Source: a virus. Taken from it: DNA of 37,635 nucleotides. The DNA lies in the IMG/VR virus record IMGVR_UViG_3300025853_010749, positions 1 to 37,635 of that record; one strand, given 5' to 3'. Positions within the stretch are counted from its first letter, which is position 1. Each line of letters starts with the position of its first letter. Position numbers and translations under genes: made by a program. Positions 1 to 30,146 of this stretch are shown piece by piece. The notes below the pieces were generated by a model that worked only from the letters and a program-made list of their open reading frames with translations, made no database searches and was not told the origin of the DNA.

Positions 1-642
1 AGTTGTAGCGGGGAACATGACGCTGACTTTTGGAGAATATGCAAAAGTCTGTGGATTGGCTCCACTAACTGAAATGCAACTTGAACCTACTCTTGAATCC
101 GAATTAAATATATCATCAATTAAGTTTGTTGTTCTTCCAAACCATCCAGTTGATTTTGGTTCTCTAAATGGAAGTGCGGCTTGCCAAGTTAATTGCTGAA
201 TATTATGAGCAAATAATCTATCTGGTCTATATAGATCACCTGGATTTGTATTATATAACTCTTTTGTTGTCGGTCTGTTTAGCACACCAACATCTCTAAC
301 AATCGCTAGATTTCCATTATTCCATTCGGTCAAAAAGTTTGGTAATTGTGGATGGAGGGCCCACTCTGGTGTAGTGCCAAGCAAAGTATTTGTTAATTCA
401 GATTCTTCAAGTCTAACTCCTGAAGCTCTCGCTGTTTCATACTTAGATCTATTGGGATTTGATGCTCCATATGGCACAACCATATTATGGGAGTCTATAG
501 CTCCAAAAAGAAATATGCATACAAGGCACTTATAATCTTCAACCCCCGCAGCAGTTGCAGCTGCGGAAGCACTAGTAGAAGCACTAGTCAAACTTTGTAT
601 AGTTGAATCTGAAATATAACTTTCTGGTAATTGATTTGCCAT
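1..642 (-). CDS. DUF1501 family protein, 3' end outside the window
   Basis: The frame is open from ATG at 642 to the window edge (214 codons). It begins 2 nt after the stop of the DUF1800 gene, so the two are probably translationally coupled. After a Ser/Thr/Ala-rich stretch (residues 13-33) comes CLVCIFLFGAIDSHNMVVPY (39-58), which corresponds to the DUF1501 opening (usually a GG-D-G-N-VVPY type motif). WALHPQLPNFLTEW (100-113), LAIVRDVG, a retained FAHNIQQLTWQ and TGWFGR follow in the family's order. DUF1501 belongs to the alkaline phosphatase/sulfatase-like superfamily, and bacterial members often carry a Tat signal; none is visible here. Place in a late structural operon suggests a virion protein. 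Activity is unknown, and the usual glycine/aspartate pattern at 46-50 is altered. Family assignment is fairly firm; role is inference. Confidence 0.8.
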   Translation of the reverse strand, partial: MANQLPESYISDSTIQSLTSASTSASAAATAAGVEDYKCLVCIFLFGAIDSHNMVVPYGASNPNRSKYETARASGVRLEESELTNTLLGTTPEWALHPQLPNFLTEWNNGNLAIVRDVGVLNRPTTKELYNTNPGDLYRPDRLFAHNIQQLTWQAALPFREPKSTGWFGRTTNLIDDIFNSDSRVGSSCISVSGANPQTFAYSPKVSVMFPATT

Positions 643-644
643 TT

Positions 645-2861
645 TTATTGTACCCAAAATTCTGGTGATCTAATAATTAATTGGAGAGCCATACAAACAC
701 GATTATCTAAATCATTCTGAGTTGATGAATTCATTGCTGTCATAGCATCTTTCATGATTTTAATTTTTTGCTGACCTAAAGTTCCCCCGCATAGAGTGAG
801 ATTGAGAACATTTATGACATTATCAATATCAGATAAATCTCCAATCGTCTCTGTGAAATCTGGAGTATAAACTCTCCCTAGACTACTTGGATTAGATCTC
901 CAAACAGTAGGATCACCACTATTTATCATATCATTAAATACTCCAATAGCATTCATCAGAGTATTTGCTGGTAGTGAACCAGCTTCTGGAATTAAAACTC
1001 CCCAATCAATTCCTGGAGATATACTGTAGTCTAAACCATAATAACTAAAAACTGACGGACTGTTATAAGGCCATGCTCCTAGTCTTGAACTTTCATAATC
1101 ATTAATATATCCAACTGCTGGATTGATATTTGTGCCATCAATATAAACCTGCGCATCTCCTTGGGTTCCAGTATATCTACTTGAACCATTTAAGCATCTT
1201 ATATACTTGCAGAATGCCTCAAAACCATCAATAAGTCTTCCTTTAGTTTCAGATGAACGAATATCTAGGTTTGCTTCAGGATCTGTAAAAATAGCAGCCC
1301 ATATTGAAGACATATCACCAGTAACACCTTTACCGTTATTTCTGAATATGGACGTAACTCTAGCTACATACTCTGGGGATGGATTTGATGTTACTGTTAA
1401 CTTTATTAGATTCTTGCAAATGTTTGGAGCACAATTTGAGTGATTTACCAATCCTTCTACCATCATCCTAATGTTAGTTTCTGGATCAGTTCCTGCGGGA
1501 ATTACAATTCCAACATTTGGAAGATTCTTTTCTCCGTCTTCATACCAAGGGACAAAATGCTTTAGTCTGGGAACAACTCCGGAAGGATAAACTCTTTTCT
1601 CTTCTACTTCGCCAGTTCCAGCTCTTCTGTCACCATCAATTGTTGCTGTAAATTCTGTTCCTACATTGCTATTTGCAGCACCATATTTTGTGAAATCTGT
1701 GGTTCCGACTGTGTATATTCTGTATGTGATTCCTTTTTTGATATATGTTACTGGTTTTGCAATTCCATAGATAGTCAGATCTTGTAGAAATGCTGTTCTT
1801 CCAATTCCTTCTAAAGTTGCTCCTCCACCTCTCATAGTTCCATCATAAGCAACATTATAATATTCTGCATCTGGTCTATCCCATCTTGTTAGACCTGTGA
1901 AAACTTTAGATGACTCAAGAATATCATCTTGGTTGTAAGTTTCAATTTTACTTCCATTTTCATCTAATTTATATGTTCCATCATTATTGAGAGCATACAG
2001 TCCAATACTGAATAACTGCATGATTTCTCTACCAAAATTTTCGTCTGGTTGTCTTCCAGATCCATCAGACTTTTGATTTCTCAAGTGCGTTAGCATTCGT
2101 GCCATGCTAAGATTATATGCCACTTCTTCTAAAAGATCAGCATAATTTCCAAATGCATGTCTTGCCAAAACTCCATGCCAGTCTACAATTGGATAAGTAT
2201 CTGTCTCTGATGGAAAACCACCTCCAGGAACAGAAACTGGAATTAGTTTATTTAATGCCCAGACAACCTTACACAATAGAGATTTTCTTGGTTCTTTTCT
2301 TGTATTATTAGTCAAAGAACCAATATCTCCAATTGGAGGATTATTTCTTATAAATGCAGAGAGAATAGAAGCTCTTGTATTATAACTTCCAGGCAAATTG
2401 ACACTAAAATTTCCATATATGTAGTCATCTGGCATCTTGAAGTGGAGTGCTACTTTTGAAAACCATCCTGGTTTTAATATCGGAGCATCCCCATTTCCAT
2501 TCCATTCGCTATATTCGCTATCATCATACGAACTTTCAATTTGTTCTTCTATCCATTCTCTTTTGCTACCAGATGCTACCAGAGCATCAATTTCTTGAAT
2601 GGTTGGACCTAAAGTGCAATTTCTTAGGAATATTGCGGCTTCCTTTCTATTATTGATTTTATCAGACTCTTGAAAGTTTACAGATCTTGCTCTGTCAACA
2701 ACAGTTGCTTCCGTGACATAATTTTCCATCAAAGAAGTTGGAACTTTTCCAGTTGTATATCCAGTATCGGTTTTTTTCAAAACCAGAAGAATATCAGAAG
2801 TATTTACAGAATCTGCTGCTGGCAGTTCTGATATTCTCTTAAACCTAAAATTTTCTGCCAT
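645..2861 (-). CDS. DUF1800 protein with tail-fibre-like N-terminus
   Basis: 738 aa. Residues 6-45 (RFKRISELPAADSVNTSDIL and following) resemble the short N-terminal segment found on many phage fibre and appendage proteins, probably for virion attachment. Residues 72-738 match DUF1800 in order: AAIFLRNCTLGPTIQEI (74-90), WHGVLARHAFGNYADLLEEV (228-247), DENFGREIMQLFSIGL (273-288), FTGL (321-324), a C-terminal SPSVF segment and a final MALQLIIRSPEFW. Between FTGL and the next conserved block a beta-type module is inserted at about 366-425 (ITYRIYTVGTTDFTKYGA...VGTEFTAT), of a kind common in cyanophage fibres. DUF1800 has no established biochemical role; in bacteria it commonly neighbours DUF1501, exactly as here. 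A late promoter precedes the gene. Likely a virion appendage; function unknown. Confidence 0.85.
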   Translation of the reverse strand: MAENFRFKRISELPAADSVNTSDILLVLKKTDTGYTTGKVPTSLMENYVTEATVVDRARSVNFQESDKINNRKEAAIFLRNCTLGPTIQEIDALVASGSKREWIEEQIESSYDDSEYSEWNGNGDAPILKPGWFSKVALHFKMPDDYIYGNFSVNLPGSYNTRASILSAFIRNNPPIGDIGSLTNNTRKEPRKSLLCKVVWALNKLIPVSVPGGGFPSETDTYPIVDWHGVLARHAFGNYADLLEEVAYNLSMARMLTHLRNQKSDGSGRQPDENFGREIMQLFSIGLYALNNDGTYKLDENGSKIETYNQDDILESSKVFTGLTRWDRPDAEYYNVAYDGTMRGGGATLEGIGRTAFLQDLTIYGIAKPVTYIKKGITYRIYTVGTTDFTKYGAANSNVGTEFTATIDGDRRAGTGEVEEKRVYPSGVVPRLKHFVPWYEDGEKNLPNVGIVIPAGTDPETNIRMMVEGLVNHSNCAPNICKNLIKLTVTSNPSPEYVARVTSIFRNNGKGVTGDMSSIWAAIFTDPEANLDIRSSETKGRLIDGFEAFCKYIRCLNGSSRYTGTQGDAQVYIDGTNINPAVGYINDYESSRLGAWPYNSPSVFSYYGLDYSISPGIDWGVLIPEAGSLPANTLMNAIGVFNDMINSGDPTVWRSNPSSLGRVYTPDFTETIGDLSDIDNVINVLNLTLCGGTLGQQKIKIMKDAMTAMNSSTQNDLDNRVCMALQLIIRSPEFWVQ

Positions 2862-2881: not shown

Positions 2882-2893
2882 TATTTATTTATC
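2882..2893 (-). promoter_or_regulatory. T4-type late promoter before DUF1800/DUF1501
   Basis: On the minus strand this reads GATAAATAAATA, two overlapping copies of the NATAAATA late motif. It lies between the LamG stop codon (2896-2898) and the DUF1800 ATG (2861), about 20 nt upstream of that ATG. Known T4-like late promoters consist essentially of this motif and use the phage sigma factor gp55. Confidence 0.7.
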
Positions 2894-2895
2894 TT

Positions 2896-3690
2896 TTATG
2901 GAAGAAGTAAGATTTCTCCATTTTCATCAGTCAATAAGACGTTATTCTCACCATCAAGTAAGATTGCATTTTCTGATGGTGCAGCACCACCAATAGAAAA
3001 TACGTAAGTATCTGATATAGAATTGTATATTCTGGTTATTTCACTTTCTTCTAACACACGACTGTAAAATCTAAAATCAAACATTCTCCCACTGTATCTA
3101 CCTTCCAAACCAAGAGGAGCAGAAAATAAATCATCTTCTGCTCCTACTGCTAATGGAGATTCTGATGTGTTTCCAGTAAATGCGATAGTATTTGAAGCTT
3201 CAAGAACACCATTTACATAAATTTGAGATCCGGTTGGAGATACTGTAACAACAATATTTTTCCACTGAACAATAGATATCGGTTGCGTAGTTGTTTCTAG
3301 AGTTACTGTATTTCTATCATATAAAGAAATATTTCCATCTGGATTAATGGAAACTCTATATCCAGTATTATATCCTTTACCAAAAAAAGTATAAATTCTA
3401 TCAACAATAGTTGTTGGATATAACCAACAACTCACACTCCACGAACTTGAATTTTGCCAAGAATCGGGTGGGACAATAATTGCATCATCTTCTCCATTAA
3501 ATGAAAAATATTGAGATCCATTAGTCCCCTCAATAAGAATATCATTTGTATTCAAAATCCACTTATTCTTTACAAAGTAATAAAAGTCTTGTCCCGGAAT
3601 TGAACCAGAACGATAGCTTTTTGGATTTTTAGGGTCCAACAAAAGTTGGAGACCACTTGCTGTGACTTTTCTACCAAAAGATATACTCAT
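2896..3690 (-). CDS. LamG/concanavalin A-like lectin-domain structural protein
   Basis: 264 aa. A LamG-type beta-sandwich covers roughly residues 62-224: FSFNGEDDAIIV, SWSVSCWLYPTT, the YRVSINPDGNISLYD strand, WKNIVVTVSPTGSQIYVNG and the closing MFDFRFYSRVLEESEITRIY, which is the standard end of this fold in phage proteins. A short tail, DGENNVLLTDENGEILL (246-262), follows, of a type seen at the ends of cyanophage fibre proteins. No signal peptide or membrane segment is visible. It lies between the long fibre gene and the DUF1800 gene, with a late promoter directly upstream. Probably a virion protein that binds surface glycans or decorates fibres; the ligand is unknown. Confidence 0.85.
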   Translation of the reverse strand: MSISFGRKVTASGLQLLLDPKNPKSYRSGSIPGQDFYYFVKNKWILNTNDILIEGTNGSQYFSFNGEDDAIIVPPDSWQNSSSWSVSCWLYPTTIVDRIYTFFGKGYNTGYRVSINPDGNISLYDRNTVTLETTTQPISIVQWKNIVVTVSPTGSQIYVNGVLEASNTIAFTGNTSESPLAVGAEDDLFSAPLGLEGRYSGRMFDFRFYSRVLEESEITRIYNSISDTYVFSIGGAAPSENAILLDGENNVLLTDENGEILLLP

Positions 3691-3721: not shown

Positions 3722-3729
3722 TATTTATT
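3722..3729 (-). promoter_or_regulatory. T4-type late promoter before the LamG gene
   Basis: Reads AATAAATA on the minus strand, 31 nt upstream of the LamG ATG (3690). It overlaps the TAA stop (3728-3730) of the upstream fibre gene. Confidence 0.65.
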
Positions 3730-6700
3730 ATGGCCAAGTTGTAATTGCAGATCTCTTCCAAGTATTAGTTGCAACACAAACATAGACATAATCAGCATCC
3801 CAACAAATTTGTCCTGCTTCTCCAGTATCAGTCGCTGATGATGGTGTCTTAGCAGTTCTTAATCTGATTGAATCGCTATTAATATCAAGTGACTGAGTTG
3901 GTGCATCAGTTCCAATACCGACATTACCATTAGAATCTACAACTACATCATCACTACCACCACCTTCTCTACGTAGACCATTAGGACTAAAATCATCTAA
4001 GAATGCAAGTTGTCCCAAATATTGATTGAGTGGAACCTGATTAGATGCATAACCAATATCCTGTTGAGTAACTACATTCCAATAAGTTGTTCCAGAATCT
4101 GTAGACTCAGTTATGAATCCGTTGACTTCTAATTTATTTTGTGGATTAGTATTTCCTATACCGACATTACCAGAAACATAAGCACCACCAGTAACATTCA
4201 GTTTTTGTGATGATCCGGTAGAGTCATTAGATCCAAAATAAACATCACCACTATCATTAATGAGCATTCTAAATTCTGTGGCAGCAACATCATAAATGTA
4301 GAATGTGTTTGAATTGACTCCATCATTACTTCCTCTTGCACCCAGTTCCCAATCATTTCCATTTGTATTGAGTTTAATAGAGCTTCTTCCAGTATCCAAA
4401 GAAGAAGTAAGAGTTAAAAGATTTCCTGAGGTAGATGATAACTCTAAATAACCAGTTTTTGTTTGTGCTGTGTTACTTGTATTCAGATAATAAGTTCCTT
4501 CCTGACCATCAAGTAAATCGGCATCTAAACCATTGCCAGTTCCCTCATCAGCAGTGGTGAGTAATCTATCAGTATTATAATATGGAGCCTTATTAAATAC
4601 CCAGTTATCCCCAGTGAAAGCATAAGTTAGAGTTGCACTTGCACCATCAACAGTAATTCCAGCACCATCTGCTGCGGAAGAATCGACAGCACCAGAAGCA
4701 AGTACGATATTCTTATCATCAACCGTTAAAGTAGTTGAATTAATTGTTGTAGTTGTTCCGTCAACCTGAAGGTTACCAAGAATGGTTACGGTTCCTGTGT
4801 TATCTCCAACTGTTGATGGGTCTAATACAAGATTAGCAGCTCCAGCAATCGTTGAAGTATTGGCATCAACACCAGTTACATAAATGCCATATGATGTGGT
4901 TTCAAATTTCTTGCCGTCATCATAAAAAAGTTCCACTGGTCCGTCTGCTATAAAATTAGCAAATACCTCACTTGTTCCATACTCCTTCAATTGAATTTTA
5001 GACGCTGATTGTAATCTTAATTCTGCAAAACCCTGAATGTTATTAAATGCCCCACCAATATGTATGATTTGTAAATCATTACTATTACCAAAAAACAAAC
5101 TATTATTATCACCAAGATATACATTACTTTGGAACGTTGCATTTTCTGTTACCAAAGATGTCCCTTGAACATGTAAAGTTGCTGTTGGAAGTAAAGTTCC
5201 GACACCTACATTACCACCATAAGATGCTAATGAAACAGTTCCATCCGCATCAACATCAATACTAGGAATACCAGAAACATCATTAACAGAGAAGATACTT
5301 CCAGAAGTCAAGTTGTTTGTAATACTGAATAGTTGACCAGCAGAACCTTCAAAACTCAAAGACTCTAAATTATCATAAGGAATAATATCAATAACGGTTC
5401 CGATACTTAATTTTGATGAAATTGAAGTATCTCCAGTTACAGTAACACCAGATGTAGTGGTTTCAAACTTCTTGGAGTTGTCGTAGTAGAGTTCTACTTG
5501 ATTCGCATCAAATACTGCTCGTAATTCATTCTGAGCACCATTCCTAATGTTTACTACACTTCCACCAATATTTAAATCACCACTACCAACATCACTAACG
5601 TAACTAGTGCTTCCATTATGATAAATCTGTAAGTCTTGACTATCACCAAGTCTCAGTCTATCATTATCACCAAGATCTACATTGCCTTGGAATGTTGCAT
5701 CTCCTCTTATATTCAAATTACCTTTAATTTCAACGGTGCCAGTATCATCTCCGATGACTTCTGGATCAATAATAAAGTTTGCTGGGCCACGAAGTTCTCC
5801 CTCTAAAGTAATAGTCTGGGTAATAAATGAACCAGAGGAATCACGTCTTACAATAGTACTCCCTACATTAGAATTAGCTTGTGTATACCCTTGAAGTTTA
5901 TTGGCATTTAAATTTGTAACTACCGTATCGGAAGAAACTTCAAATGGAGCAGTTCCTGGCGCTGCTGTAGATTTAAATATAATTGCCTTTATATTTCCAT
6001 TAACATCAAGCTTTTCTGTTGGTAGTAAAGTTCCGATACCAACATTTCCATTATATGGGGCAATAGAAACAATTCCATTGACATCAACATCAATACTCGG
6101 AATACCGGAAATATCATTTACCGAGAAAATAGATCCTTCTGTTAAATTATTGGTTACGGAAAATAATTGTCCAGCAGATCCTTCTATATTTAAAGCATTA
6201 TATCCAGTTCCAGAATTAATGTGTACCTTTGAAGTTGGATTTTCAATACCAATTCCAACATATTCGTCAACACCATATGGAGCAATTAGTACTGTCCCAT
6301 ATTGATCAATATTGAAACTGGGAATACCTGAAATATCACTAATATTGAATGAATCTGACTCAGAATCATTTGATATAGTAAAGAGTGGACCATATGTTCC
6401 ATTAAAACTCAAAGTCCCATTATAAAGATTATCGTTTGAATTTATATTTATTACTGATCCAATCTTAACACCAAGATCTGTAGTTTCAAATTTTTTGGTA
6501 TTATTGTAGTAAAGTTCAACAGATCCGTCCGAATTGCAAATAATTGAATTTTCTGCAACTAAATCAAATGGTGAGTATGTTTGTAATACTAATCTATCAT
6601 CGCCAATTAAAAATAAATCTCCAGTTGAAGATGGTGTTTGATTGATGTAACTATTGCTTCCATCATGATAAATTTTTAAGTCATCATCTGTTCCAAAATT

Positions 6701-7630
6701 TAATGTATTGCCGTCTCCAAAATACGAATCACTTTGAAATGTGACATTACTTTGGAATGTAATTTCACCACTGAATGATGTGTTGCCAGAAATGTTTCCG
6801 ATGTTTACAGTACCAGTAAACTCAGCATTACCAGAAGTATCAAGAGTAAGAATCCTGGAACCTGCTAATACAAACTGTAGATTCCCAGCAGCATTTGTTG
6901 CTAGATCATTTGGCGATTCATAAATCGCCCATCCACTTCCACCTCCCCAGAGTACTCCTTCACCTGGACCCGGATCTTGAAATGTTAATTTATTAGCACC
7001 AGTAATACCACCATTATTCAAAAATAGTATATCGCTACCACCATTGCCGTTATTTAAATATACATTACCACGAACTTCTAATGCATATCCAGTTACTCCA
7101 ATAGTATCTGTTCCGATACCAACAGTTCCGTCATCTCCTACTACAAGATCATCAGACCCACCACCATCTCTCCTCAGTCCATTTGGACTGAAATCATCTA
7201 AAAATGCAAGTTGTCCTAAGTATTGATTTAGTGGAACTTGGTTTGCAGCATAACCAATATCTTGCTGAGTAACAACGTTCCAATAAGTTATACCGTTATC
7301 GGTAGATTCAGTTACGAGTCCATTAACATTAGTATTCTTGTGTAGAGTTATTGACTCAGTATTATCGGTAGTTGATAATGTAACATAAAAATTTTCACCT
7401 TCTTTTATAGTTAAAGCAGTAGAATTATTATCTATAATAGAAATGTTGCTAGAAGATGCAGATAATGTGATATCTCCCCCAGTAACAGATAAATCATCAA
7501 CTGATAAAACATTTTCAACAGCTACATCTCCATTGAAAAAATTATACAAAGTATCTGAAATAGAATTTATTTTTTGCCTTTGTATCTCAAAAGTATCTAG
7601 TTTTAGTACATTAATTGCTGGTGCTGGCAT
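3728..7630 (-). CDS. Long repetitive tail-fibre/virion structural protein
   Basis: 1300 aa, rich in Gly, Ser, Asn and Thr. It carries many short fibre repeats typical of cyanophage structural proteins: the D-L-x-I-Y-H-x-G-S-x-S-Y type (e.g. DLQIYHNGSTSYV), VELYYDNSKKFETTTSGV, and GNVGIGTLLPTEKLDVNG. Such repeats usually form trimeric beta-structured shafts. A segment of about 66 residues occurs twice, near the N-terminus (about 108-174) and the C-terminus (about 1175-1241). The C-terminus ends with ICWDADYVYVCVATNTWKR, a common cyanophage fibre ending. No intramolecular chaperone (peptidase S74) domain is visible. The start overlaps the end of the 66 aa gene by 20 nt. Receptor binding is plausible; the target is unknown. 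Confidence 0.85.
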   Translation of the reverse strand: MPAPAINVLKLDTFEIQRQKINSISDTLYNFFNGDVAVENVLSVDDLSVTGGDITLSASSSNISIIDNNSTALTIKEGENFYVTLSTTDNTESITLHKNTNVNGLVTESTDNGITYWNVVTQQDIGYAANQVPLNQYLGQLAFLDDFSPNGLRRDGGGSDDLVVGDDGTVGIGTDTIGVTGYALEVRGNVYLNNGNGGSDILFLNNGGITGANKLTFQDPGPGEGVLWGGGSGWAIYESPNDLATNAAGNLQFVLAGSRILTLDTSGNAEFTGTVNIGNISGNTSFSGEITFQSNVTFQSDSYFGDGNTLNFGTDDDLKIYHDGSNSYINQTPSSTGDLFLIGDDRLVLQTYSPFDLVAENSIICNSDGSVELYYNNTKKFETTDLGVKIGSVININSNDNLYNGTLSFNGTYGPLFTISNDSESDSFNISDISGIPSFNIDQYGTVLIAPYGVDEYVGIGIENPTSKVHINSGTGYNALNIEGSAGQLFSVTNNLTEGSIFSVNDISGIPSIDVDVNGIVSIAPYNGNVGIGTLLPTEKLDVNGNIKAIIFKSTAAPGTAPFEVSSDTVVTNLNANKLQGYTQANSNVGSTIVRRDSSGSFITQTITLEGELRGPANFIIDPEVIGDDTGTVEIKGNLNIRGDATFQGNVDLGDNDRLRLGDSQDLQIYHNGSTSYVSDVGSGDLNIGGSVVNIRNGAQNELRAVFDANQVELYYDNSKKFETTTSGVTVTGDTSISSKLSIGTVIDIIPYDNLESLSFEGSAGQLFSITNNLTSGSIFSVNDVSGIPSIDVDADGTVSLASYGGNVGVGTLLPTATLHVQGTSLVTENATFQSNVYLGDNNSLFFGNSNDLQIIHIGGAFNNIQGFAELRLQSASKIQLKEYGTSEVFANFIADGPVELFYDDGKKFETTSYGIYVTGVDANTSTIAGAANLVLDPSTVGDNTGTVTILGNLQVDGTTTTINSTTLTVDDKNIVLASGAVDSSAADGAGITVDGASATLTYAFTGDNWVFNKAPYYNTDRLLTTADEGTGNGLDADLLDGQEGTYYLNTSNTAQTKTGYLELSSTSGNLLTLTSSLDTGRSSIKLNTNGNDWELGARGSNDGVNSNTFYIYDVAATEFRMLINDSGDVYFGSNDSTGSSQKLNVTGGAYVSGNVGIGNTNPQNKLEVNGFITESTDSGTTYWNVVTQQDIGYASNQVPLNQYLGQLAFLDDFSPNGLRREGGGSDDVVVDSNGNVGIGTDAPTQSLDINSDSIRLRTAKTPSSATDTGEAGQICWDADYVYVCVATNTWKRSAITTWP
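3907..4108 (-). repeat. 3' copy of a duplicated fibre-gene segment
   Basis: Encodes ESTDSGTTYWNVVTQQ through PLNQYLGQLAFLDDF to about NVGIGTDAP. It is closely related at protein and DNA level to the copy at about 7109-7309 in the same gene, with many silent differences. Confidence 0.8.
7109..7309 (-). repeat. 5' copy of a duplicated fibre-gene segment
   Basis: Encodes ESTDNGITYWNVVTQQ through PLNQYLGQLAFLDDF to about TVGIGTDT, the partner of the copy at about 3907-4108. The two lie about 3.2 kb apart. Confidence 0.8.
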
Positions 7631-7811
7631 TTTTTATTATCTCTCTAAGGAGTAGTTTAATTTCAGATAATTCTGCTTTCAAATTATTTATGTCATTCAG
7701 AGCAGTGCTAAAGGATGTAGTAAAATTGCTTTTACTGGGTTTTTGGGTGTTTATAATTGCGCCAGTAGATGGGTCTCTATACAACCCCTCATGCCCTTTC
7801 ACTTTTATCAT
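7611..7811 (-). CDS. Small conserved coiled-coil protein of the structural operon
   Basis: 66 aa. The N-terminus MIKVKGHEGLYRDPSTGAII resembles short proteins found beside structural genes in marine T4-like phages (recognised from memory, not searched). The C-terminal half (about 36-60, DINNLKAELSEIKLLLREII) shows a heptad pattern and probably forms a coiled coil. The start codon overlaps the stop of the 2714 aa gene (TGATG), which favours coupled translation, and its end overlaps the start of the fibre gene by 20 nt. It may be a small connector or assembly factor; the function is not known. Confidence 0.75.
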   Translation of the reverse strand: MIKVKGHEGLYRDPSTGAIINTQKPSKSNFTTSFSTALNDINNLKAELSEIKLLLREIIKNASTSN

Positions 7812-10800
7812 CAGTAGGAAGCAACGACTCTCAAGTCTTGAACTTTTGGAACGTATGCTGGATCTACAGTTTGCATTACAATCTTAACTGCAAAAGAACT
7901 GAAATTCTGTAAGTTTGCAGTACTATACTTCAATTCTTGATATGACCTTTGCTCCTCAAATTCTCCAGAAATTGTATTGGTTGCTGTTGCAACTTCTTCT
8001 GTATCTGGATTGCCATTTGTATTGAATGGCGTCCAATTAATATCTTCAAAGTTCTCTTGAGAAGAAGACTTCTTAGTCTTGTAGAATACTTTTACATTTT
8101 CTACATCTTTCAGATTTACAGTAATTCTAACATCAATAGCACTACCATCGGAATTTAGCGAAACTTCTTTACTCACATACTTAGCAACTGCAGAGGTGTT
8201 CTTAGAACTATCTTCGCTAACATAATCTACACCATTCTCAAATGTCATAGAAGAAACTTTTATGAATTGCAGTTCTTCAACTGTTAAATCATCTGTAAAT
8301 ATCAAATCATTTACTCTAAAGATATCATTTTGTTGATCGCCAACAGAAGTCTTTCTTGCATAATCACTACCAACTAAAATAGGATCGCTGAAATTATCAT
8401 TTATTGGTTGCTTATTATTTTCTAGAACTAGTTCTCCTAGTTGAGAATCCCAATTGATAATCTTTCCTGAAATTTTATTTTCATACTTGATAGTTACATC
8501 ACTTGGATTTAGAGAAACAATCGTTGAACCAACAGTAAAGTTGGGAACTATCTCTGTAGAACCAAAGGCAGAAATTGCAACTATCTGACCATTATCATCG
8601 CCTCCAAAATACTTGGGATTGTAGAATGCGTTATTCAACTGAGATTGTGAAGAGAAGAATAACTCTTCATTAGCTTCAAAAGAACTAATACTTGTTAGTC
8701 TAACCCATACAGTATTATCAGAGTACTTAATAATTTCTCCCTTTGCCTTTGAAGTAATTCCTTCAACAGACTGATTTATAGCGACATCAACTCCACCATT
8801 GCCAGAAATCGCAAACGAATATACTGGGAAGAATGATAACTTTTGATATCTCTTGCCATAACGATCTTCTTTACCTTTAGAATTTTCTACTCTATTGGAA
8901 TATGTTTTCACCGAAGATGATGCAACGTCAATTACGGGGGATAGATATGAAACATTTGATGATAACTCTACTCTATATCCCAAAGAACTATCAATATTAT
9001 TGAGTGTGCTATTGATCTCTGAAGTTATAACTTTTTGATTGTTGAAGAATTGCTCTTCATTCAAGAAAGTTTTTTCGTAATTTGAAACTGAATAAGAGGT
9101 ATAATTTTGAGTTGAAGAATCAACAGGAATGATATTAGTTGTCTTTACAAATGAATTGATAGTTGTTCCTTCTGATTGAATATAATTTACTTGGGCATAT
9201 AGTTTTTCATACTTTCTATTGTAAGAAGCAATTACTGAACTGCCGCCACCGAATACGCTACTACCTGCTCTATTGGGAGCTTGAATATCGTAAGTATCAA
9301 TACCAGAATTGGTAACTTCAAATAGATTTGTATTCAAAACGGAACTTGTGATTCCTCCAACATCTCTTGCATTATCAAAGAATACATAGGACTTACCACC
9401 ACCCTCAAAACCATGATTCTTGTGAGAAACTCTCAGAATGGTATTGTTATTTTTGAATAACGTAGAAGTTGCAGTTGAATCTGATCTAGCAGAAGTCTCA
9501 AAAGGATCTACTGATAATCTTTCATATCCAAGAGGATCATTCTTCAAGAATAATTCTGCTGTTCTACTAATATCAAATTCTGCTCTGTATAGAGTAAACT
9601 TGACATCTTCAAACAGATCTTCTGTCCAATTATCAATATTCTGGGACTTATAAAGAGAACCTAGAGCAGGTTGTGTTGTAACTGTTACACTTGTTGCAAT
9701 ATCAGGATCGCCAAGTTTAGACGCCCACATCATATAATCGGTAGAGTCTGTTTCTACGACAAGAGCATATTGAATATTATTTTGTAAGTAAACTGGATGC
9801 TTGAACTTGAAGTTGGTTGGAGTTACCGAATTGAAAGTTCCAAAATTGGTAAAGTCGTCAACTGCAACACCCATGGAAACTGCAGGACTATTAATTTCAA
9901 TATTTGCTTTTACAACTGCTCCTGCTGCTCCAGATCCAACTCCTCTAATAACAACCGAAGGATTTTCTGTATAACCACTACCACTTAGAGTTATCTCTGT
10001 AGCATAAATTTTTCCACCAGATACTTTACAAACAGCAGCTGCTGTGCTTCCACCAGGAAGTTGTGGACTCTCAATAGTTAGAATAGCGCCTTCATAATTT
10101 GATCCTGTGGAATCAATAACAAGTTCTGAAATTTTTCCAGAATCTTTAGCAATCTTTAGAGTTAGATTTGTTGAATTTTTATTATTGTATACTGTTAGAG
10201 AATTTGTATTGACTTGCTCATCTTGAACAAATGTCTTACCATTATGATTAGATAGAACAAATGTATATACTTGCTCATTTGTCAGATTATATGTTCCATC
10301 TGATAGAGGAACTACCTCAATATTGCTTCTATCAAAGATCTTTTCTAGAGGACCAGAAGCTCCCGACTTAGCACCATTTACAAGTTCTCCTTGCTTGACT
10401 GAAAGATTGCCACTAGCAAATACTTTCAACTTAGTTTCGGGATTCAATACGCTTTCAGTTCCAGGAACAATATTCTTGGATGGTTTACCTAGATCTACAT
10501 TAGTTAGATAAACTCTAATTGGAATAGTAGAACTCTTCTTATTGAAGAACAAGTCAACTCCAGTAGCAAATACACCACCTTGATAATTTTCAATCTTGAA
10601 TGTTTGTGCTAATGGATTTGGTTTTACTTCAATATCTGTATTGCTGTCTGCTAATTGAATTCCTTCATTTGCCTTGAAGTATGAAGGTCTAGTAGAAATA
10701 ATAGAACTTGGATTTTCTGGAAGAATTCCAGATGCATAATATTTTACTTCTGCATATGTATCTACTTCATCTTTATTAGCATTTACAGAGCTTGATGTAA

Positions 10801-13800
10801 ATCTAATAGTCTTCACTCCAGTTGGGAATCTTAGTTGATCAGTATTCGTATCGTATAAAACAGTTTGAATATCATTAGTCCAAGGAGTTCCTTCTACTGG
10901 AGGATATCCACCAGGAATAATAATAATGCCACTCGCATTACCATTCTCATCTGTGATTACAGATCTTCCAAATGCTGATGGAGAATTTCCAGCAATACCA
11001 GTAAATCTAGAATCAGGGACAACCCATCTTCCAATATCTTTACCTTCCATGAACACAAAGACCTGAGTCTTTGGTTTCATTCTTCTAATAACGTATTTTA
11101 CATCCTGACTTCTGGCAAACAACTGCAACGAATTTGCTACGGACTTGTTACCGATTGTAGTTTTTCCTACACCTTGTGCCAACTCATAGTTTTGTGGTGT
11201 GATATTTGAACTACTTGAAACAAGAGCAAGATCTACATTTGCAGATGATTTTTCACTATCTGTTTGAGTAAGAGGATCAATATTGAAGAATGTTCTATTT
11301 GTACCTATCCAATTGATGATTGAACTATTGTAGATGCTTGAGAATGCCTCCTCAGCATTTGACTTAGCAGAGAAAATTGAAAATAGTCCAGTATTGTCGT
11401 TAACAACAATTGGTTGAATTGAACTATCATACCATGTATCAACTTGAGGGAATAATTCACCATCGCCAGCATATTGAATAACAACAAATGGATTTGGGTT
11501 GATAGTTTTAGTAGCAAATTGATTTGATACTAACTCAAGATTTGTATACGGTAAAGTTACAATACCATTATTATTTGTGTAACCGTATATAGATCTCTCA
11601 TCATTTGTAGTAAATACTTCTCTGAGAGAAATTGAATCTTCTTTTACCTGAGGTCTCAATACAGATTGCTGCGTATCAATAGAGCACTCATAGTCAATAG
11701 ACTTTAGATTGCCTACCTTGTGATATTCAAAGTTATCTACGATAAAACCACTCTTGAATCTATCAAGACCAATCTCATCTTTTACTTGCATATTCAGAGC
11801 TTGTTGCTCAAGAATGCTTAGAGTTGTATAATGCTCAAGACGCTCAATACGCTTCTCAAGTTTTCCAATATCTCTCATCGTATATCTACGATTGTCAACT
11901 GGAATAATCTTTACGTCTTTGCTTGTATTGGTATAAGCTGGAACGTAGATGTAATATAGAGGAATACTATCATCAATAGTTTCTGGTTTTGCTGGATTTA
12001 GCGAGGAATTTCCTTCCTTAATAGCAAACTCTCCCTTCTTGGTTAGGAAGACGCCATCAATTCTATCAAGATATTGTGTTTCGCTAAATGAAATCGTAAA
12101 TTCTAAATTGGAATCTATAGCAGGAGTGCTGCTTGCAATTCCTCCTGGACCTGCAAAACTGGAAGCATTTGTTTGTGAAAGTATTGATGTATCTTGGAAT
12201 CCTGTTACGATTGAATTAGAATCAACCTTAGGTCTGAAATCAATTACGTTCTTGAGAGAAACGTTACCAAATACAGAAGAATTGAATGCTGGAATTTCTT
12301 GTTCTCCAACGCCAGCTTCATGTAAATAAGAATCTACCGTGCAGAAATCTCCCTGGGAATGATCAAAGTAATCAAACCCAACTACTAATTGACCGATAGG
12401 AGGATCAAATCCTGGTTTTAGTACAATTCTAGAAACATCATAGAATGTATCTCTCTGACCATCATCAAAAGTAAATCTGCTAGTAATATCATTACCACTA
12501 ATCAAAACACCATCTGAGTCTACTACTGGAGGATTTGCTCCACCTTCGTAGATATATCTTAGTTTATAAACATCGGAGTAAGTAAATACTTCTGTATCTG
12601 CTGTGTCATAATCATAACCACGTAGAGGAACAACTCTATCTCCAGCAGCAGTAATTACAATTCTCTTATTTGCAATTGAAGTTTTTAGTCTTGGTTTTGC
12701 TTTAGAAACTTCTAAAGTAGCAGTAAGTTTCAGAGTTGGGAATCCAGTTGCAATATCACCAAAGAAATCGGAAGGGAGAGTTAGAGTAATACTTCCAGAA
12801 GTAAGACCACTCGTAGAATCAGTTGATGTGTTTATATTGACATAACTTTCATCAATATAAACAATATCTCCATTATTGACTACATCTGAACTTCCTTTAT
12901 TCAGAACAGTAAATACGTAATTCTCTTTTGTGTATGATACAAATCTCTGTGTTCCGAAAGGTAATTGAGCAGCAAATGTTAGATTACCTCCACTTGAAGA
13001 TCCAGTAGTTACAAAATCTCTTCTGAAGTAATACTTGAATTTAGAATCAGATACATCTTTGATTAGAGATTTTACTTGTCTGCTTCCTGTTGGGAAAATC
13101 AGAGTTGACGTTGTTGTATTTGATTGCTTTGGTCTTACTCTAACAACAGATGAGTTTAGTACATCCTTTGGTAAAGCAGAATCCAAATAAATTCTTACTC
13201 TCTTTGTACCTAGAGACTTGGTTGCGTATTGAACAATAGATCTATTTACAATTCCAGTTGAATCTGTAAACTGAATTAGATCTCCTTGCTTTACATAATT
13301 TGATCCATCGTCACCAAATCCATTACACTCAAGGAATTTATATCCCTGTGTTCCAGAGAAAGTAAATGATGTTACTTGATCGATGAATGAGTATTCTTCT
13401 TTGCTGAGCTCAGCATCTGCAGTAAATCTGTTTGCATTTCCAGATCCAAATACCGAATAGAAAGACTTAATATTTTCTGGAGAATAAGTAAGTACAGTAT
13501 TTCTAAACAATACTGCAATTACTTCTGCTTCTGAAGTTGGATCTCCAGAAGATAGTTTTGCTGTTACTGCTGGAGGATTTGCATAGGTTTGCAATAACGC
13601 ATTTCTATTGGCAACCGTAACTTTGTAAAGAGCACCAGTATTATCAACACCAACAGAAATCTTTGATGCATCGTATGAGACACCATCAACCGAAATCTGT
13701 GTAGCACTTTGAGTATATCCACTACCTCTTCTTGTTACAACAAAATGAGAAATGGTATTTTCATTTGCAATTCTTCTTACATTATTGTCTTCGTCAAAGA

Positions 13801-15955
13801 TAGTTTCACCAGGAATAAAGTTACCATATAGGGTTTTTACGAATAGAGTATCACCATAAGAATAGAACCCGTTTGGAGAACCCTCTACGACCCCATAAGC
13901 GCCGCTTTTCGTTCCTACAATATATTTTCCTGCTATAAAGGTGTTTAGTGTTACAGGGGCATCTAGAGTTAGTTTAGTGAAGAAGACTGGATTGAAGTAT
14001 GATAGTGAGAAAGTGGCATCATCAAAATTAGATCCAGATAGTACCTTGTCATTATTTGGGTTGAATCCTGATGGAAGATCTCTGAAATAGAAGTTCTTTG
14101 GTTTTGCTACACCTACTAATGGAGTAAATGAATTGTTGTAATCTCTTACAATACCAAATTCTTGACCAGTTGGACTAATAGCTTGATTTCTATCTCTGAA
14201 GATTTTAGTTTCTTTTAGGTTATCATTTTCATTATATTCTTTTAGATAAGCATCTAATTGATCTTTTCTTCCATAAACAGTAAGTTCTAAGTAATCATTA
14301 GTTCCTGTACCATCAATTTCTGGTCTCTTTACAATAGACCACGCAATAGAACGGAAAGAATCTACGGTATCTTCTGTTTTTCTAAACCATAAGGTTCCTA
14401 ATTCAGTCTCGAAATTTAAATTTGTAATATCACCAAAAGTAAATGAAGTATCTCTTTGCTCTATGTAAATCGTTCTTATAGCAATATCTTCATTACTAAA
14501 AGTTACTCCCTCTGAAGAGTATGCATATTCTTCACCTCTTCTGGAAATTGTATTTTTGTACCCTCCTTCAGACGCTTTTGAATTCAGTCCAATACTGGAA
14601 TCATTAAATGTGGAATATAGAAAAACGTTTGGATATGCAGTCAACTCTGCGCCATCTGCATTTAGAGGAACTGATCCATAAACGTTTGAAATCTTGAAGT
14701 CTACTAGACCTTTACCTTTGATGGTAATATTGTCTCTTTCAATCGTATCTCTTGCTTTATCTACCTCAAGAAACTTAGTCTCTTTATTTACAATTTCATA
14801 TCCTCTAACGTAAGCCTTTCCAGGACCTACAGAAGCAACCATCTTTCTTTCTGCTTCTACTACAGGAATATCATTTACAGTATTTGTTTCCCTGTTTAGA
14901 TTATAAAATCCTAGATTGCCATCTTTTTGATAATACTCTCTAATATCAATAGAGAAATCCTGTACAACATAATCTCCGGACTCATCAAAAGTTCTTCTAG
15001 CTAGAGTATCTTCAATAAGAGTATAATCTGCCTTCTTGATCTTCTTCTCAATTACACCAGACTTGATCTTGAGTAACTGAATAAAATTGTTATCAGTTGA
15101 TTCTGTATAACCATACTTTTGAAGATCTAGTGTAATCTTCAGTCTATTTGCTCCAGGTGAAGCAAAGTTTGAGAATCCTCTTGCGTTATCGTATAGAGAA
15201 TTATCATCTTCTGCAGCTGCTATAGATTCAGATATTCTAAATCCAACCTTTGCAGATGGTCTATCGTAATACTTATTAACTACTAATAGTTGCTCACTAT
15301 TTCTTACAAAGAATCCATTTACAAAATAAATTCCTTCTTCTACCTTGACAGCAGAAGCAAAACCCATCGCTGGACTCAACTTTGTTGTAGTCTCACCAGT
15401 ATCTGGATTTGTTATAGTAATAGAAGTAGGAAGAACGCTGCCATCTGTTCCTACGACCAATAGAGGTGTATTTACACCATCAACTACTTCTAGAGTTTCT
15501 CCTTGTCTAAAAGTTGCTTCATCTGCAGCATCGCCACTATTTGTATAATTTACAAAAAGAGTATCTGCTTCTGAAGGATTTGAATATTCTGCTGTGACAA
15601 TAGTAGCAACAACACCCGAGGTAATTCCCTGAACTTTTTGTCCTACTAATTGCTTGATATCATATTTCTGATACGTTATCTCGCCATTAACATTTACTGC
15701 CACTTCGGAAACTGATGACAGCTTTACGTAGTCTAGTCTATTATTAAGACCAACCTCTCCAGGTACTACAAGCTCTCCCTGTTTGAATTGGAACTTTCCA
15801 TAGCTCTCTATTTGATTTTGTAAAATAGATTGCAAGGAAGTGAGTTCCCTACTTTGGATAGAATATCCAGGTCTAAAAAGAACTCTATAGAAATTTTTAG
15901 ACGGATCAAAATCGTCAAAGTAGGGATCTACATTGAGGTTAGTCTTCTGTGGCAT
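7811..15955 (-). CDS. Giant DUF4815 virion/baseplate structural protein
   Basis: 2714 aa. The N-terminus contains DFDPSKNFYRVLFRPGY (15-31) and SIQSRELTSLQSILQNQIE, the signature of the DUF4815 family of cyanophage structural proteins. A later segment, YQGGVFATGVDLFFNKK followed by IPIRVYLTNVDLGKPS, is also typical of these proteins. Glycine-rich repeats of the GSGYT..P.V type occur between. T4 has no protein of this size at this position; in cyanophages it follows the gp8-like gene and is taken to be a peripheral baseplate or fibre-base component, perhaps replacing gp9-gp12 functions (inference). No promoter motif is seen in the 42-nt gap upstream, so it is probably co-transcribed with the gp8-like gene. 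Confidence 0.85.
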   Translation of the reverse strand: MPQKTNLNVDPYFDDFDPSKNFYRVLFRPGYSIQSRELTSLQSILQNQIESYGKFQFKQGELVVPGEVGLNNRLDYVKLSSVSEVAVNVNGEITYQKYDIKQLVGQKVQGITSGVVATIVTAEYSNPSEADTLFVNYTNSGDAADEATFRQGETLEVVDGVNTPLLVVGTDGSVLPTSITITNPDTGETTTKLSPAMGFASAVKVEEGIYFVNGFFVRNSEQLLVVNKYYDRPSAKVGFRISESIAAAEDDNSLYDNARGFSNFASPGANRLKITLDLQKYGYTESTDNNFIQLLKIKSGVIEKKIKKADYTLIEDTLARRTFDESGDYVVQDFSIDIREYYQKDGNLGFYNLNRETNTVNDIPVVEAERKMVASVGPGKAYVRGYEIVNKETKFLEVDKARDTIERDNITIKGKGLVDFKISNVYGSVPLNADGAELTAYPNVFLYSTFNDSSIGLNSKASEGGYKNTISRRGEEYAYSSEGVTFSNEDIAIRTIYIEQRDTSFTFGDITNLNFETELGTLWFRKTEDTVDSFRSIAWSIVKRPEIDGTGTNDYLELTVYGRKDQLDAYLKEYNENDNLKETKIFRDRNQAISPTGQEFGIVRDYNNSFTPLVGVAKPKNFYFRDLPSGFNPNNDKVLSGSNFDDATFSLSYFNPVFFTKLTLDAPVTLNTFIAGKYIVGTKSGAYGVVEGSPNGFYSYGDTLFVKTLYGNFIPGETIFDEDNNVRRIANENTISHFVVTRRGSGYTQSATQISVDGVSYDASKISVGVDNTGALYKVTVANRNALLQTYANPPAVTAKLSSGDPTSEAEVIAVLFRNTVLTYSPENIKSFYSVFGSGNANRFTADAELSKEEYSFIDQVTSFTFSGTQGYKFLECNGFGDDGSNYVKQGDLIQFTDSTGIVNRSIVQYATKSLGTKRVRIYLDSALPKDVLNSSVVRVRPKQSNTTTSTLIFPTGSRQVKSLIKDVSDSKFKYYFRRDFVTTGSSSGGNLTFAAQLPFGTQRFVSYTKENYVFTVLNKGSSDVVNNGDIVYIDESYVNINTSTDSTSGLTSGSITLTLPSDFFGDIATGFPTLKLTATLEVSKAKPRLKTSIANKRIVITAAGDRVVPLRGYDYDTADTEVFTYSDVYKLRYIYEGGANPPVVDSDGVLISGNDITSRFTFDDGQRDTFYDVSRIVLKPGFDPPIGQLVVGFDYFDHSQGDFCTVDSYLHEAGVGEQEIPAFNSSVFGNVSLKNVIDFRPKVDSNSIVTGFQDTSILSQTNASSFAGPGGIASSTPAIDSNLEFTISFSETQYLDRIDGVFLTKKGEFAIKEGNSSLNPAKPETIDDSIPLYYIYVPAYTNTSKDVKIIPVDNRRYTMRDIGKLEKRIERLEHYTTLSILEQQALNMQVKDEIGLDRFKSGFIVDNFEYHKVGNLKSIDYECSIDTQQSVLRPQVKEDSISLREVFTTNDERSIYGYTNNNGIVTLPYTNLELVSNQFATKTINPNPFVVIQYAGDGELFPQVDTWYDSSIQPIVVNDNTGLFSIFSAKSNAEEAFSSIYNSSIINWIGTNRTFFNIDPLTQTDSEKSSANVDLALVSSSSNITPQNYELAQGVGKTTIGNKSVANSLQLFARSQDVKYVIRRMKPKTQVFVFMEGKDIGRWVVPDSRFTGIAGNSPSAFGRSVITDENGNASGIIIIPGGYPPVEGTPWTNDIQTVLYDTNTDQLRFPTGVKTIRFTSSSVNANKDEVDTYAEVKYYASGILPENPSSIISTRPSYFKANEGIQLADSNTDIEVKPNPLAQTFKIENYQGGVFATGVDLFFNKKSSTIPIRVYLTNVDLGKPSKNIVPGTESVLNPETKLKVFASGNLSVKQGELVNGAKSGASGPLEKIFDRSNIEVVPLSDGTYNLTNEQVYTFVLSNHNGKTFVQDEQVNTNSLTVYNNKNSTNLTLKIAKDSGKISELVIDSTGSNYEGAILTIESPQLPGGSTAAAVCKVSGGKIYATEITLSGSGYTENPSVVIRGVGSGAAGAVVKANIEINSPAVSMGVAVDDFTNFGTFNSVTPTNFKFKHPVYLQNNIQYALVVETDSTDYMMWASKLGDPDIATSVTVTTQPALGSLYKSQNIDNWTEDLFEDVKFTLYRAEFDISRTAELFLKNDPLGYERLSVDPFETSARSDSTATSTLFKNNNTILRVSHKNHGFEGGGKSYVFFDNARDVGGITSSVLNTNLFEVTNSGIDTYDIQAPNRAGSSVFGGGSSVIASYNRKYEKLYAQVNYIQSEGTTINSFVKTTNIIPVDSSTQNYTSYSVSNYEKTFLNEEQFFNNQKVITSEINSTLNNIDSSLGYRVELSSNVSYLSPVIDVASSSVKTYSNRVENSKGKEDRYGKRYQKLSFFPVYSFAISGNGGVDVAINQSVEGITSKAKGEIIKYSDNTVWVRLTSISSFEANEELFFSSQSQLNNAFYNPKYFGGDDNGQIVAISAFGSTEIVPNFTVGSTIVSLNPSDVTIKYENKISGKIINWDSQLGELVLENNKQPINDNFSDPILVGSDYARKTSVGDQQNDIFRVNDLIFTDDLTVEELQFIKVSSMTFENGVDYVSEDSSKNTSAVAKYVSKEVSLNSDGSAIDVRITVNLKDVENVKVFYKTKKSSSQENFEDINWTPFNTNGNPDTEEVATATNTISGEFEEQRSYQELKYSTANLQNFSSFAVKIVMQTVDPAYVPKVQDLRVVASY

Positions 15956-15997: not shown

Positions 15998-17824
15998 TCA
16001 GAACTCAATAACTAGTTTGATATCCTCAATCTGGTCGGCAGCTCTTGTGATTAATCTTCTATTCTCTATGTATATGATATCTCCAGAATTATTATCAATT
16101 TCGGGCTGAGAAATGCCGCTAGCAAAGTTTCCAAAGAATGGAGAAATTGGATCATTGTTTTCAGAAGCATTATATGAGGAATCAACAGTTCCTGATGCTA
16201 AAGAATCTTCTCCATCAACAGTAGCAGGACCATTTTCAAATGCTCTTACAACACCATTATCTTTGTGATATCTTGGTGACTGGAAGATTTTTAGAATACC
16301 ACTAAAACTTCCTGGAGCATCTGGAGTCCAAGAAACAACAGTTCCCTTTGCAATTCCTCCAGTAACTGTTTGAGTTACAACTTCATCTGGGGTATAATCT
16401 GCTCCAGCACTATCAATCTTTAGTGCAGTCAATCCATTTAGAGTATCTGTTGTAGCATAAGTAGTAGTTCCATTTACGTATGGATCTTTGATAATACCAA
16501 TTCTACGGAAGTCGTTGTCAACAGGGAAGTCACCAAAACCTTCTGCATAAGTAAGACGAATATTCGCCATTACTCTCTTGCCATTTAGTTCTAGTTCCAT
16601 GTCACTACCATGACCACCTTGTGGAGGAATAATGACTTTGATCTTACCAGTTGCTCCAGCACCAACAGTTGCTGCACTAGTTAAAGCAGAATTTGTGAAT
16701 AGTCCATATGCAGTTGCACCAGAACCCGTTCCTGTCTTGAGGAAAATTTCTCCATAAGTATAATCTTGACCACGACCACCAACAGTTACAGATGTAACAG
16801 CGCCAGATGCAATAGTAATCGTAGCGTATGCGGCAGTACCATCACCAACAACAGGAGCATAGTAAGTTCCGTCAGCAGGAAGACCAGATCCAGCATCTTC
16901 AATCAAATATGCATCAATAGCACCTGGAACTGCTATACCTTCCGTTGCGATTCTAGTTGCATCTGTAGCAGATACAATTGGCATAAAGTCAGATGAAAGA
17001 AATCTTAGAACATCATCTGTTGGAATAGTATACATGTATTTCCAAGTATACGCTCCAAGAGTAAGCAACCCTGTAGCGCCAACATATCCAGGGTCTGTGG
17101 TTGTGGGTTCGTTAACTGATAATTGCCCATTTGGATTTGCTGGATTTGTTCCGTTATAAATGCACTTCCAAACTTCATACTGAGCATTCATTACATAGAA
17201 CTTAGCATCAGCAATAGATGATTGACCAGTAGCAGTTAGATTGCCTGTTCTACCAGTTCCAGATGGAGCATAATCTGGTCTCCACATATCATATGTGGTA
17301 TTCACTTGCCAATTATATCTTCTGATCACAGATCTTACATACTGATCCGTAATTCTCTTTGCTGCAATCAGATCATCATAGACTTCAAATTTTTCATCTT
17401 GATTATCTTCGGGAACTGTTGGAAACTCCTCAGTTCCATAACGATAGATGCCTGTTTTAGCAGTAGCTCCTGTGTCTGATCCACCCAAATATCCTTTTAG
17501 GGTTGAACCTGGAGTTGGTACGCTAGAAACTCCACTAGCACCATTAACATTATAAAGTAAAAGACTATCTGTATAAACTTCTCTGACCACTCCTTTGAAG
17601 GTAGATGAGAGATATGATGTTCCAACATATACTTCGTCACCTTCGTTAAAAGCAGTTGCGTTTTGACTATAGATTTCTAAATACGCATCCCATCTTTGTG
17701 GACGACCAACAAAGAAATACAATCTGCTTCTTTCATCGCTAGTATCACTACTACCTTCACTGAAAGACTCTATGAATTGTTTCGCATTAAAAATTCTAAA
17801 CTTATCTGAAATGATGGCAGGCAT
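15998..17824 (-). CDS. 8: Baseplate wedge protein, gp8-like
   Basis: 608 aa. It begins MPAIISDKFRIFNAKQFIES, the standard start of cyanophage gp8-like proteins, followed by RLYFFVGRP. A second conserved block has RRYNWQVNTTYDMWRPDY, close to the Y-D-M-Y/W-R segment found in this family. T4 gp8 is shorter (about 334 aa); the enlargement here includes a glycine-rich stretch (VTSVTVGGRGQDYTYGEIFL) like those in the neighbouring giant proteins. gp8 is part of the six wedges around the tail hub. It lies directly after the gp7-like gene as in T4, with a perfect late promoter in the 46-nt gap. Confidence 0.8.
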   Translation of the reverse strand: MPAIISDKFRIFNAKQFIESFSEGSSDTSDERSRLYFFVGRPQRWDAYLEIYSQNATAFNEGDEVYVGTSYLSSTFKGVVREVYTDSLLLYNVNGASGVSSVPTPGSTLKGYLGGSDTGATAKTGIYRYGTEEFPTVPEDNQDEKFEVYDDLIAAKRITDQYVRSVIRRYNWQVNTTYDMWRPDYAPSGTGRTGNLTATGQSSIADAKFYVMNAQYEVWKCIYNGTNPANPNGQLSVNEPTTTDPGYVGATGLLTLGAYTWKYMYTIPTDDVLRFLSSDFMPIVSATDATRIATEGIAVPGAIDAYLIEDAGSGLPADGTYYAPVVGDGTAAYATITIASGAVTSVTVGGRGQDYTYGEIFLKTGTGSGATAYGLFTNSALTSAATVGAGATGKIKVIIPPQGGHGSDMELELNGKRVMANIRLTYAEGFGDFPVDNDFRRIGIIKDPYVNGTTTYATTDTLNGLTALKIDSAGADYTPDEVVTQTVTGGIAKGTVVSWTPDAPGSFSGILKIFQSPRYHKDNGVVRAFENGPATVDGEDSLASGTVDSSYNASENNDPISPFFGNFASGISQPEIDNNSGDIIYIENRRLITRAADQIEDIKLVIEF

Positions 17825-29754: not shown

Positions 29755-30146
29755 TATCGTGTACGCTCTAAGAAGAATTCTACTGCTATTGGTGCATCAT
29801 CTCTTCCAATAATAGTATATGTCAATTCAACTTCATACCCATTATTCATTTCATCTGGTGTACATCTGATCGAATCTACATCAATTCGTGGTTCATAACG
29901 ATTCAATACATCACGAATCTCAGATCTGATGATACCAGCACTACCAAAATCTAATGGTTCAAATAATATATTCTGAATACCACATCCCAACTCTGGTTGA
30001 AATGGTCTTTCACCCTTTCTTGTAAGAAGCAATCCTGTTATTGCCTGAACAATAGCAGCTTTATCTTTTACAGTTACTAGATCATTCGTAACAGGATGCT
30101 TCTTAAATGTAACACTCAAATCCTTGAATGTCTGAAAGGTTGACAT
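29754..30146 (-). CDS. 25: Baseplate wedge protein gp25
   Basis: 130 aa, matching T4 gp25 (132 aa) and the gp25/lysozyme-like wedge family in length. Residues 40-68 contain LTRKGERPFQPELGCGI and LFEPLDF, the most conserved part of the family, and LNRYEPRIDV (81-90) follows. gp25 anchors the sheath-initiator end of the wedge beside gp6 and gp53. Despite the family's name, no lysozyme catalytic residues need be present. It heads the gp25-gp6-gp7-gp8 run, with a late promoter motif 25 nt upstream. No strong Shine-Dalgarno is visible before the ATG. Confidence 0.93.
   Translation of the reverse strand: MSTFQTFKDLSVTFKKHPVTNDLVTVKDKAAIVQAITGLLLTRKGERPFQPELGCGIQNILFEPLDFGSAGIIRSEIRDVLNRYEPRIDVDSIRCTPDEMNNGYEVELTYTIIGRDDAPIAVEFFLERTR

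Follow-up and report, generated by a model that had tools for sequence, protein, structure and literature searches.

Phage tailspikes with enzymatic activity are mostly beta-helix lyases and hydrolases or esterases. Such depolymerases and deacetylases offer an analogy to the locus described here, in which a surface-acting enzyme would likewise be placed at a fiber tip; no phage depolymerase or tailspike with a sulfatase was found in the open papers searched. The closest described genetic system is bacterial. Genes of the DUF1800 and DUF1501 families (PF08811/PF07394; COG5267/COG4102) form an operon that adjoins chitin synthase genes and in which DUF1501 bears a Tat motif (PMC5122149). This neighborhood fits a role in polysaccharide biology for the bacterial pair. 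The two families are paired in many bacterial phyla, and the open papers found give no function for them. A second point of reference is the cyanophage S-TIM5 (Aurunvirus), in which the baseplate J and Tail_P2_I genes are followed by a LamG fiber (AEZ65710, a virion structural protein by annotation), a gpV-like spike, and the terminase.

The phage copies described below share with the bacterial operon its families, its gene order, and its nearly touching genes. Unlike the bacterial copies, they are located in structural regions and mostly form clades of their own; the Tat motif is missing, and the N-termini are of fiber type or otherwise specific to phages. It is judged fairly probable that the two proteins would constitute a virion-borne receptor-binding unit, a tip resembling a tail fiber or tailspike, with DUF1501 as a probable hydrolase head.

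The Gene Pair in a Late Structural Region of a Cyanophage

The window, that is, the whole stretch of DNA analyzed, covers the entire IMG/VR record IMGVR_UViG_3300025853_010749 (37,635 bases). Its minus strand encodes, in order, gp25, gp6, a 3,360-aa protein, gp8, a 2,714-aa structural protein, a 1,300-aa fiber, a LamG protein, DUF1800, and DUF1501 (Table 1), and the context of gp25, gp6, gp8, and fibers was borne out by Pfam and PHROGs. Because gp6 is 83% identical to that of Synechococcus phage S-B43 and 79–80% identical to those of S-RSM4 and S-WAM2, the window is assigned by sequence to a T4-like cyanophage (Synechococcus phage), of which it is a fragment. In S-RSM4 and S-WAM2, the 1,411- and 1,204-aa structural proteins are followed by a 166–167-aa protein and a giant tail fiber, and the genes past these structural proteins show no similarity to the LamG, DUF1800, or DUF1501 genes of the window. 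No contigs overlapping the window start and reaching beyond position 1 were found.

Table 1. Features of the window discussed in the text.
Feature	Coordinates	Strand	Evidence or remark
Baseplate wedge gp6 and gp25	27958..30146	-	Pfam, PHROGs, gp6 identity
Baseplate wedge gp8	15998..17824	-	Pfam, PHROGs
2,714-aa structural protein, S-RSM4_149 ortholog (57%)	7811..15955	-	
1,300-aa fiber protein	3728..7630	-	residues 1-31 resemble S-RSM4 structural protein 148; repeats resemble S-TIM5 fiber
LamG (concanavalin A-like lectin) protein, directly upstream of DUF1800 in the operon	2896..3690	-	PF13385 E 3.1e-21
Late-promoter-like site, two overlapping ATAAATA	2882..2892	-	27-31 nt upstream of DUF1800 start
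DUF1800 protein, complete, 738 aa	645..2861	-	PF08811 E 1.4e-42
Fiber-type N-terminal segment of DUF1800 protein, residues 1-66	2664..2861	-	
Inserted segment within DUF1800, ~residues 371-421, ITYRIYTVGTTDFTKYGA..GTEFTAT..GTGEV	1599..1751	-	common to L004
DUF1501 (PF07394-related) protein, N-terminal 214 aa	1..642	-	gene cut at contig end; relative L004:12036-13529 passes PF07394

The DUF1800 protein scores 146.8 bits against PF08811 (Pfam gathering cut-off 26.1). The likely start of DUF1501 is the ATG at position 642 of the minus strand, 2 nt after the DUF1800 stop codon ("...TAA AA ATG"). Since the record itself starts within this gene, DUF1501 is incomplete; the fragment (214–219 aa) falls below the PF07394 cut-off, its best-scoring C-terminal half being missing, and it ends before most of the metal-site-like residues. 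The family assignment was provided by the full-length DUF1501 of a related viral contig, L004, which is 71–74% identical to the fragment over 214 aa and reaches 74.1 bits against PF07394 (cut-off 27, E 1.5e-20). Six other viral members score 79–114 bits. The preliminary description of this DNA, made from the letters alone, had placed both families here, in this order, 2 nt apart, and at the end of a fiber module; each of these claims was confirmed, the pair following baseplate and fiber genes, although the Pfam check of DUF1501 succeeded on the full-length relative and not on the window fragment. PHROGs searches with both window proteins returned no family, and a PDB sequence search gave chance-like matches only. 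The segment inserted in DUF1800 of the window and L004 weakly matches a virion structural protein of cyanophage S-TIM54 (E 0.02).

The heptamer ATAAATA is read as a T4 late promoter. All eight sites in the window lie on the coding strand, and six of them precede structural genes by 27–61 nt: two sites stand before the DUF1800 start and one each before those of the LamG, fiber, gp8, and gp25 genes. The two sites preceding DUF1800 are compatible with the late promoter proposed earlier; the motif shows no general enrichment in the window (8 observed versus 16 expected).

Elsewhere in the window, between positions 31000 and 35500, the G+C content climbs from 0.34 to approximately 0.5–0.54, and short overlapping ORFs occur on both strands. 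A chimeric origin of this G+C-rich stretch (31–35 kb) was considered and dropped, as similar DNA is present in S-RSM4 and S-PM2; the region looks like cyanophage sequence. A 132-aa protein encoded at 31125–31523 (minus strand) weakly matches the PHROG family "PAAR motif of membran proteins" (E 0.011).

Occupation of a Fiber Slot

Relatives were sought by scanning 2.9 million viral contigs, supplemented with profile-guided scans. The closest pair, 73% identical, occurs on contigs L003 and L004, which are 99.96% identical to each other, derive from two datasets, and carry phage genes on both flanks. With a terminase 67% identical to that of S-TIM5, L003 and L004 are placed by sequence in an S-TIM5-like lineage, apart from the T4-like cyanophages; both the window and L004 are contigs rather than isolates. 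The neighbors of the pair in L004 correspond one to one with those in S-TIM5 (J, 43%; P2_I, 34–40%; gpV-like, 40%; TerL, 67%; side tail fiber, 56%). The order in L004 is baseplate J, Tail_P2_I, DUF1800 and DUF1501 (in place of the LamG fiber of S-TIM5), and then the gpV-like spike and terminase. Thus, the pair of L004 occupies the genomic slot of a fiber gene. The S-TIM5 fiber shares with the pair this slot and a related N-terminal segment, whereas its body consists of repeats and a LamG lectin domain and contains neither DUF1800 nor DUF1501. As a separate observation, a single 977-aa protein of L004 (L004:13544-16477) represents two S-TIM5 proteins, the gpV-like spike and a 539-aa protein, in an apparent fusion.

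The N-terminal segment RISELPAADSVNTSDIL, described at the outset as tail-fiber-like, is found in the DUF1800 protein of the window, and comparison with S-TIM5 substantiated its proposed character. Approximately 50 N-terminal residues are related among the S-TIM5 fiber and the DUF1800 proteins of the window and L004. A profile of the two cyanophage DUF1800 N-termini recovered the S-TIM5 fiber as its only other significant match among 2,489 ORFs (E 1.7e-5). In leave-one-out searches of the same set, any two of the three N-termini found the third as the best other match (E 1.7e-5, 2.3e-5, and 7.6e-4), and the next unrelated ORF stood at E 0.064 or worse. This relation surfaced only by profile; a tblastn search of INPHARED with the 66 N-terminal residues of the window protein gave no match. 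Residues 1–66 are likely the virion-attachment part. At the DNA level, the pairs of the window and L004 are 70.6% identical over 2.67 kb, starting just past the N-terminal segment (window 2646), and an identity that begins after a kept N-terminal segment is the pattern that would be expected of fiber-tip exchange. On another branch of the DUF1800 tree, the N-terminus of the L028 protein matches that of a neighboring protein (37% over 91 aa, E 1e-9).

Fold and Candidate Active Site

The alkaline phosphatase superfamily, including NPP phosphodiesterases, the alkaline phosphatase PafA, and choline sulfatase, provides the structural reference for DUF1501. Fold comparisons were made with a model of the L004 protein (pLDDT 80, rising above 90 in most core blocks). 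Foldseek aligned it with choline and carrageenan sulfatases (E 2.7e-5 for choline sulfatase), and VIA-align gave Z scores of 19.4 for NPP phosphodiesterases, 18.4 for PafA, and 17.6 for choline sulfatase over approximately 250 residues. On this model, DUF1501 has the alkaline-phosphatase/phosphodiesterase/sulfatase fold, in agreement with the superfamily to which the preliminary description had assigned it. The superfamily and DUF1501 have in common the fold, and the conserved Asp and His residues of DUF1501 are a candidate match to the metal-ligand set; they differ in sequence (8–12% identity) and in the nucleophile, which is not conserved in DUF1501.

Among phage and bacterial DUF1501 sequences, D42, which follows the first strand, is present in 57 of 58 and H138 in all 58, and D358, H360, D415, and H416 are found in every one of the 57 sequences reaching that region. 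The exception at D42 is the phage member L029, which has Cys. The candidate nucleophile, T118, varies (Thr in 41 of the 58, Asn in 7, Ser in 6, and Asp in 2); T117/T118 lies at a plausible helix start in the window and L004, and the position is variable across the family. From the modeled fold and the conserved residues, DUF1501 is predicted to be a probable metallo-hydrolase. Because of the variation at T118, inactive binders may make up part or all of the family.

The DUF1800 model is mostly helical (pLDDT 72). A PDB fold search with it returned nothing under E 0.5, an absence that is weak evidence at this pLDDT. As the fold matches nothing solved, the role proposed for DUF1800 rests on position.

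Proposed Function

Position and fold support a phage receptor-binding module made from unusual building blocks. The preliminary description had suggested a virion-borne enzyme or receptor-binding unit directed at the host surface, for example at phosphorylated or sulfated glycans, and this suggestion is supported in part. The N-terminal segment of DUF1800 would attach to the virion, and the remainder would act as a structural partner carrying DUF1501. The latter would form the exposed head, where it would probably bind, and likely hydrolyze, a phosphate or sulfate ester of a host surface polysaccharide. The LamG lectin protein adjoining the pair in the window is counted in favor of this fiber reading. 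Cyanobacteria make a sulfated exopolysaccharide, synechan, as described for Synechocystis rather than marine Synechococcus (PMC8205485), and a sulfatase would be plausible for this reason. A further-reaching version holds that DUF1800 and a catalytically active DUF1501 metallo-phosphatase, phosphodiesterase, or sulfatase make up a new receptor-binding apparatus that desulfates or dephosphorylates host glycans across unrelated tailed phages; it is offered tentatively, with our judgment inclined somewhat against it.

A virion-borne pair might instead be a non-catalytic adhesin that uses the phosphatase/sulfatase-like fold for receptor binding alone. Such an adhesin would agree with the Thr/Asn/Ser/Asp variation of the candidate nucleophile, with the Cys in place of D42 in L029, and with the nature of the replaced S-TIM5 protein, a LamG lectin-type fiber with no evident enzyme domain. 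However, the metal-ligand-like Asp and His residues are invariant or nearly so in phage and bacterial members, and a pure binder would not need them; this explanation is regarded as unlikely.

Phage and Bacterial Forms of the Pair

Among 75 bacterial-type pairs, the gene order is identical in all, and the Tat motif is present on DUF1501 in 74. By comparison, none of the ten phage DUF1501 proteins has a Tat signal; the sole phage match to the RR-x-L expression, in L026, belongs to the fold's first strand. Near their start, all ten phage proteins carry P-x-[SDGN]-[YF], which is found in 0 of the 75 bacterial proteins; the window protein, which lacks a Tat signal, begins with MANQLPESY, an arm of this type. 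The motif of L028 is probably coincidental, as it is sited at the domain start, and since the nine other phage proteins are related by descent, the count is descriptive and not statistical. For the receptor-binding unit proposed above, the absence of the Tat signal would be explained by assembly: bacterial DUF1501 is exported by Tat, and the phage pair would fold in the cytoplasm and be built onto the particle. The arm holds the position of the bacterial Tat signal and might serve to dock DUF1501 onto DUF1800.

Auxiliary metabolic genes are numerous in cyanophages. The pair could accordingly be pictured as a moron or auxiliary unit expressed in the infected cell and absent from the virion, where it would change the host surface or the use of nutrients, for example through superinfection exclusion or the scavenging of phosphate or sulfate, and the action of bacterial DUF1501 outside the cytoplasm would accord with this. 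Against it stand the missing Tat signal of phage DUF1501, the fact that several lineages have the pair inside or next to their structural genes, and the fiber-type N-terminus of cyanophage DUF1800, which together make such a role quite improbable.

Beyond these, nine viral contigs have either the pair (L016, L017, L019, L022, L023, L026, L028, and L029) or DUF1800 (L021, a contig that stops at this gene), in most cases next to portal, capsid, or terminase genes. According to PHROGs, L016 has portal, capsid, and tail-like proteins adjoining the pair, a terminase lies nearby in L017, L022, and L029, and L021 encodes a head protein; a Mu F-like protein is encoded on L028. In L017 (3656-6910), DUF1501 is followed by approximately 650 extra C-terminal residues that have no Pfam match and look lectin-like on visual inspection; the protein may unite an enzyme with a binding tip. 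The contig of L028, whose pair is without a Tat signal, also has response-regulator-like and C39 peptidase genes. A bacterial-type pair with signal peptide and Tat motif is found in L018 (IMGVR_UViG_3300037882_003354, 322 kb, classed viral), where it adjoins a 609-aa protein of similar N-terminus; L018 is either a piece of host DNA or a phage of very large genome.

Among the 50,697 phage records of INPHARED, no DUF1800 was detected, and the single weak DUF1501-like stretch lies in an unannotated fecal contig. A search of cyanophages for the pair, suggested previously, succeeded for the S-TIM5-like L003 and L004 but yielded no clear relative in INPHARED. A phage DUF1501 had been deposited before: UniProt A0A6J5M742, "DUF1501 domain-containing protein" of an uncultured Caudovirales phage, was retrieved as a structural match (UniProt/BFVD, E 8.5e-22) under a name that seems to have been assigned automatically. 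In the open papers searched, a phage DUF1501 protein was not found to be discussed. The "DUF1501" of Pseudomonas phage ZC03, a 61-aa protein with a weak CDD match (PMC5418858), was set aside.

In a DUF1800 tree of 86 rows, built by a quick method and rooted at the midpoint, seven phages including the window form one clade (support 99), three more group in a second clade next to the midpoint root, and the L028 protein is placed with bacterial sequences. Because the phage DUF1800 proteins fall mostly into clades of their own, their lineage is an old one, and the pair did not enter by recent insertion from bacteria. More than one capture by phages probably took place; on account of its position among bacteria, the L028 pair was probably acquired independently, by a phage or an element derived from one. 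The pair is under purifying selection, with dN/dS of approximately 0.1 between the window and L004 at saturated dS.

Bacterial DNA inserted recently into a phage genome, or joined to it in a chimeric assembly, could be suspected because the window stops inside DUF1501, with phage genes on one side only, and because the bacterial-type pair of L018, Tat signal included, lies on an IMG/VR contig, but this is largely refuted and extremely improbable given the two-sided phage flanks and near identity of L003 and L004 from two datasets, a G+C content of the pair (0.36) that matches the surrounding structural region, nearest relatives that are other phages in a supported clade (99), and the presence of the pair in unrelated viral contigs. 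A recent insertion confined to this genome, which the preliminary description had named as counting against it, is contradicted by those unrelated contigs and by the separate phage clades.

Implications

The presence of the pair in a fiber slot suggests a compact surface-acting unit, and the freedom of the phage proteins from export signals makes them practical to test. If the proposed receptor-binding unit is real, it would represent a fiber-tip type that is missed by current annotation, having no PHROG family and no clear relative in 50,697 phage records, and that is common to two separate cyanomyovirus lineages. If the tip is an active enzyme, it would also offer a pointer to the role of the widespread, uncharacterized bacterial DUF1800–DUF1501 pair.
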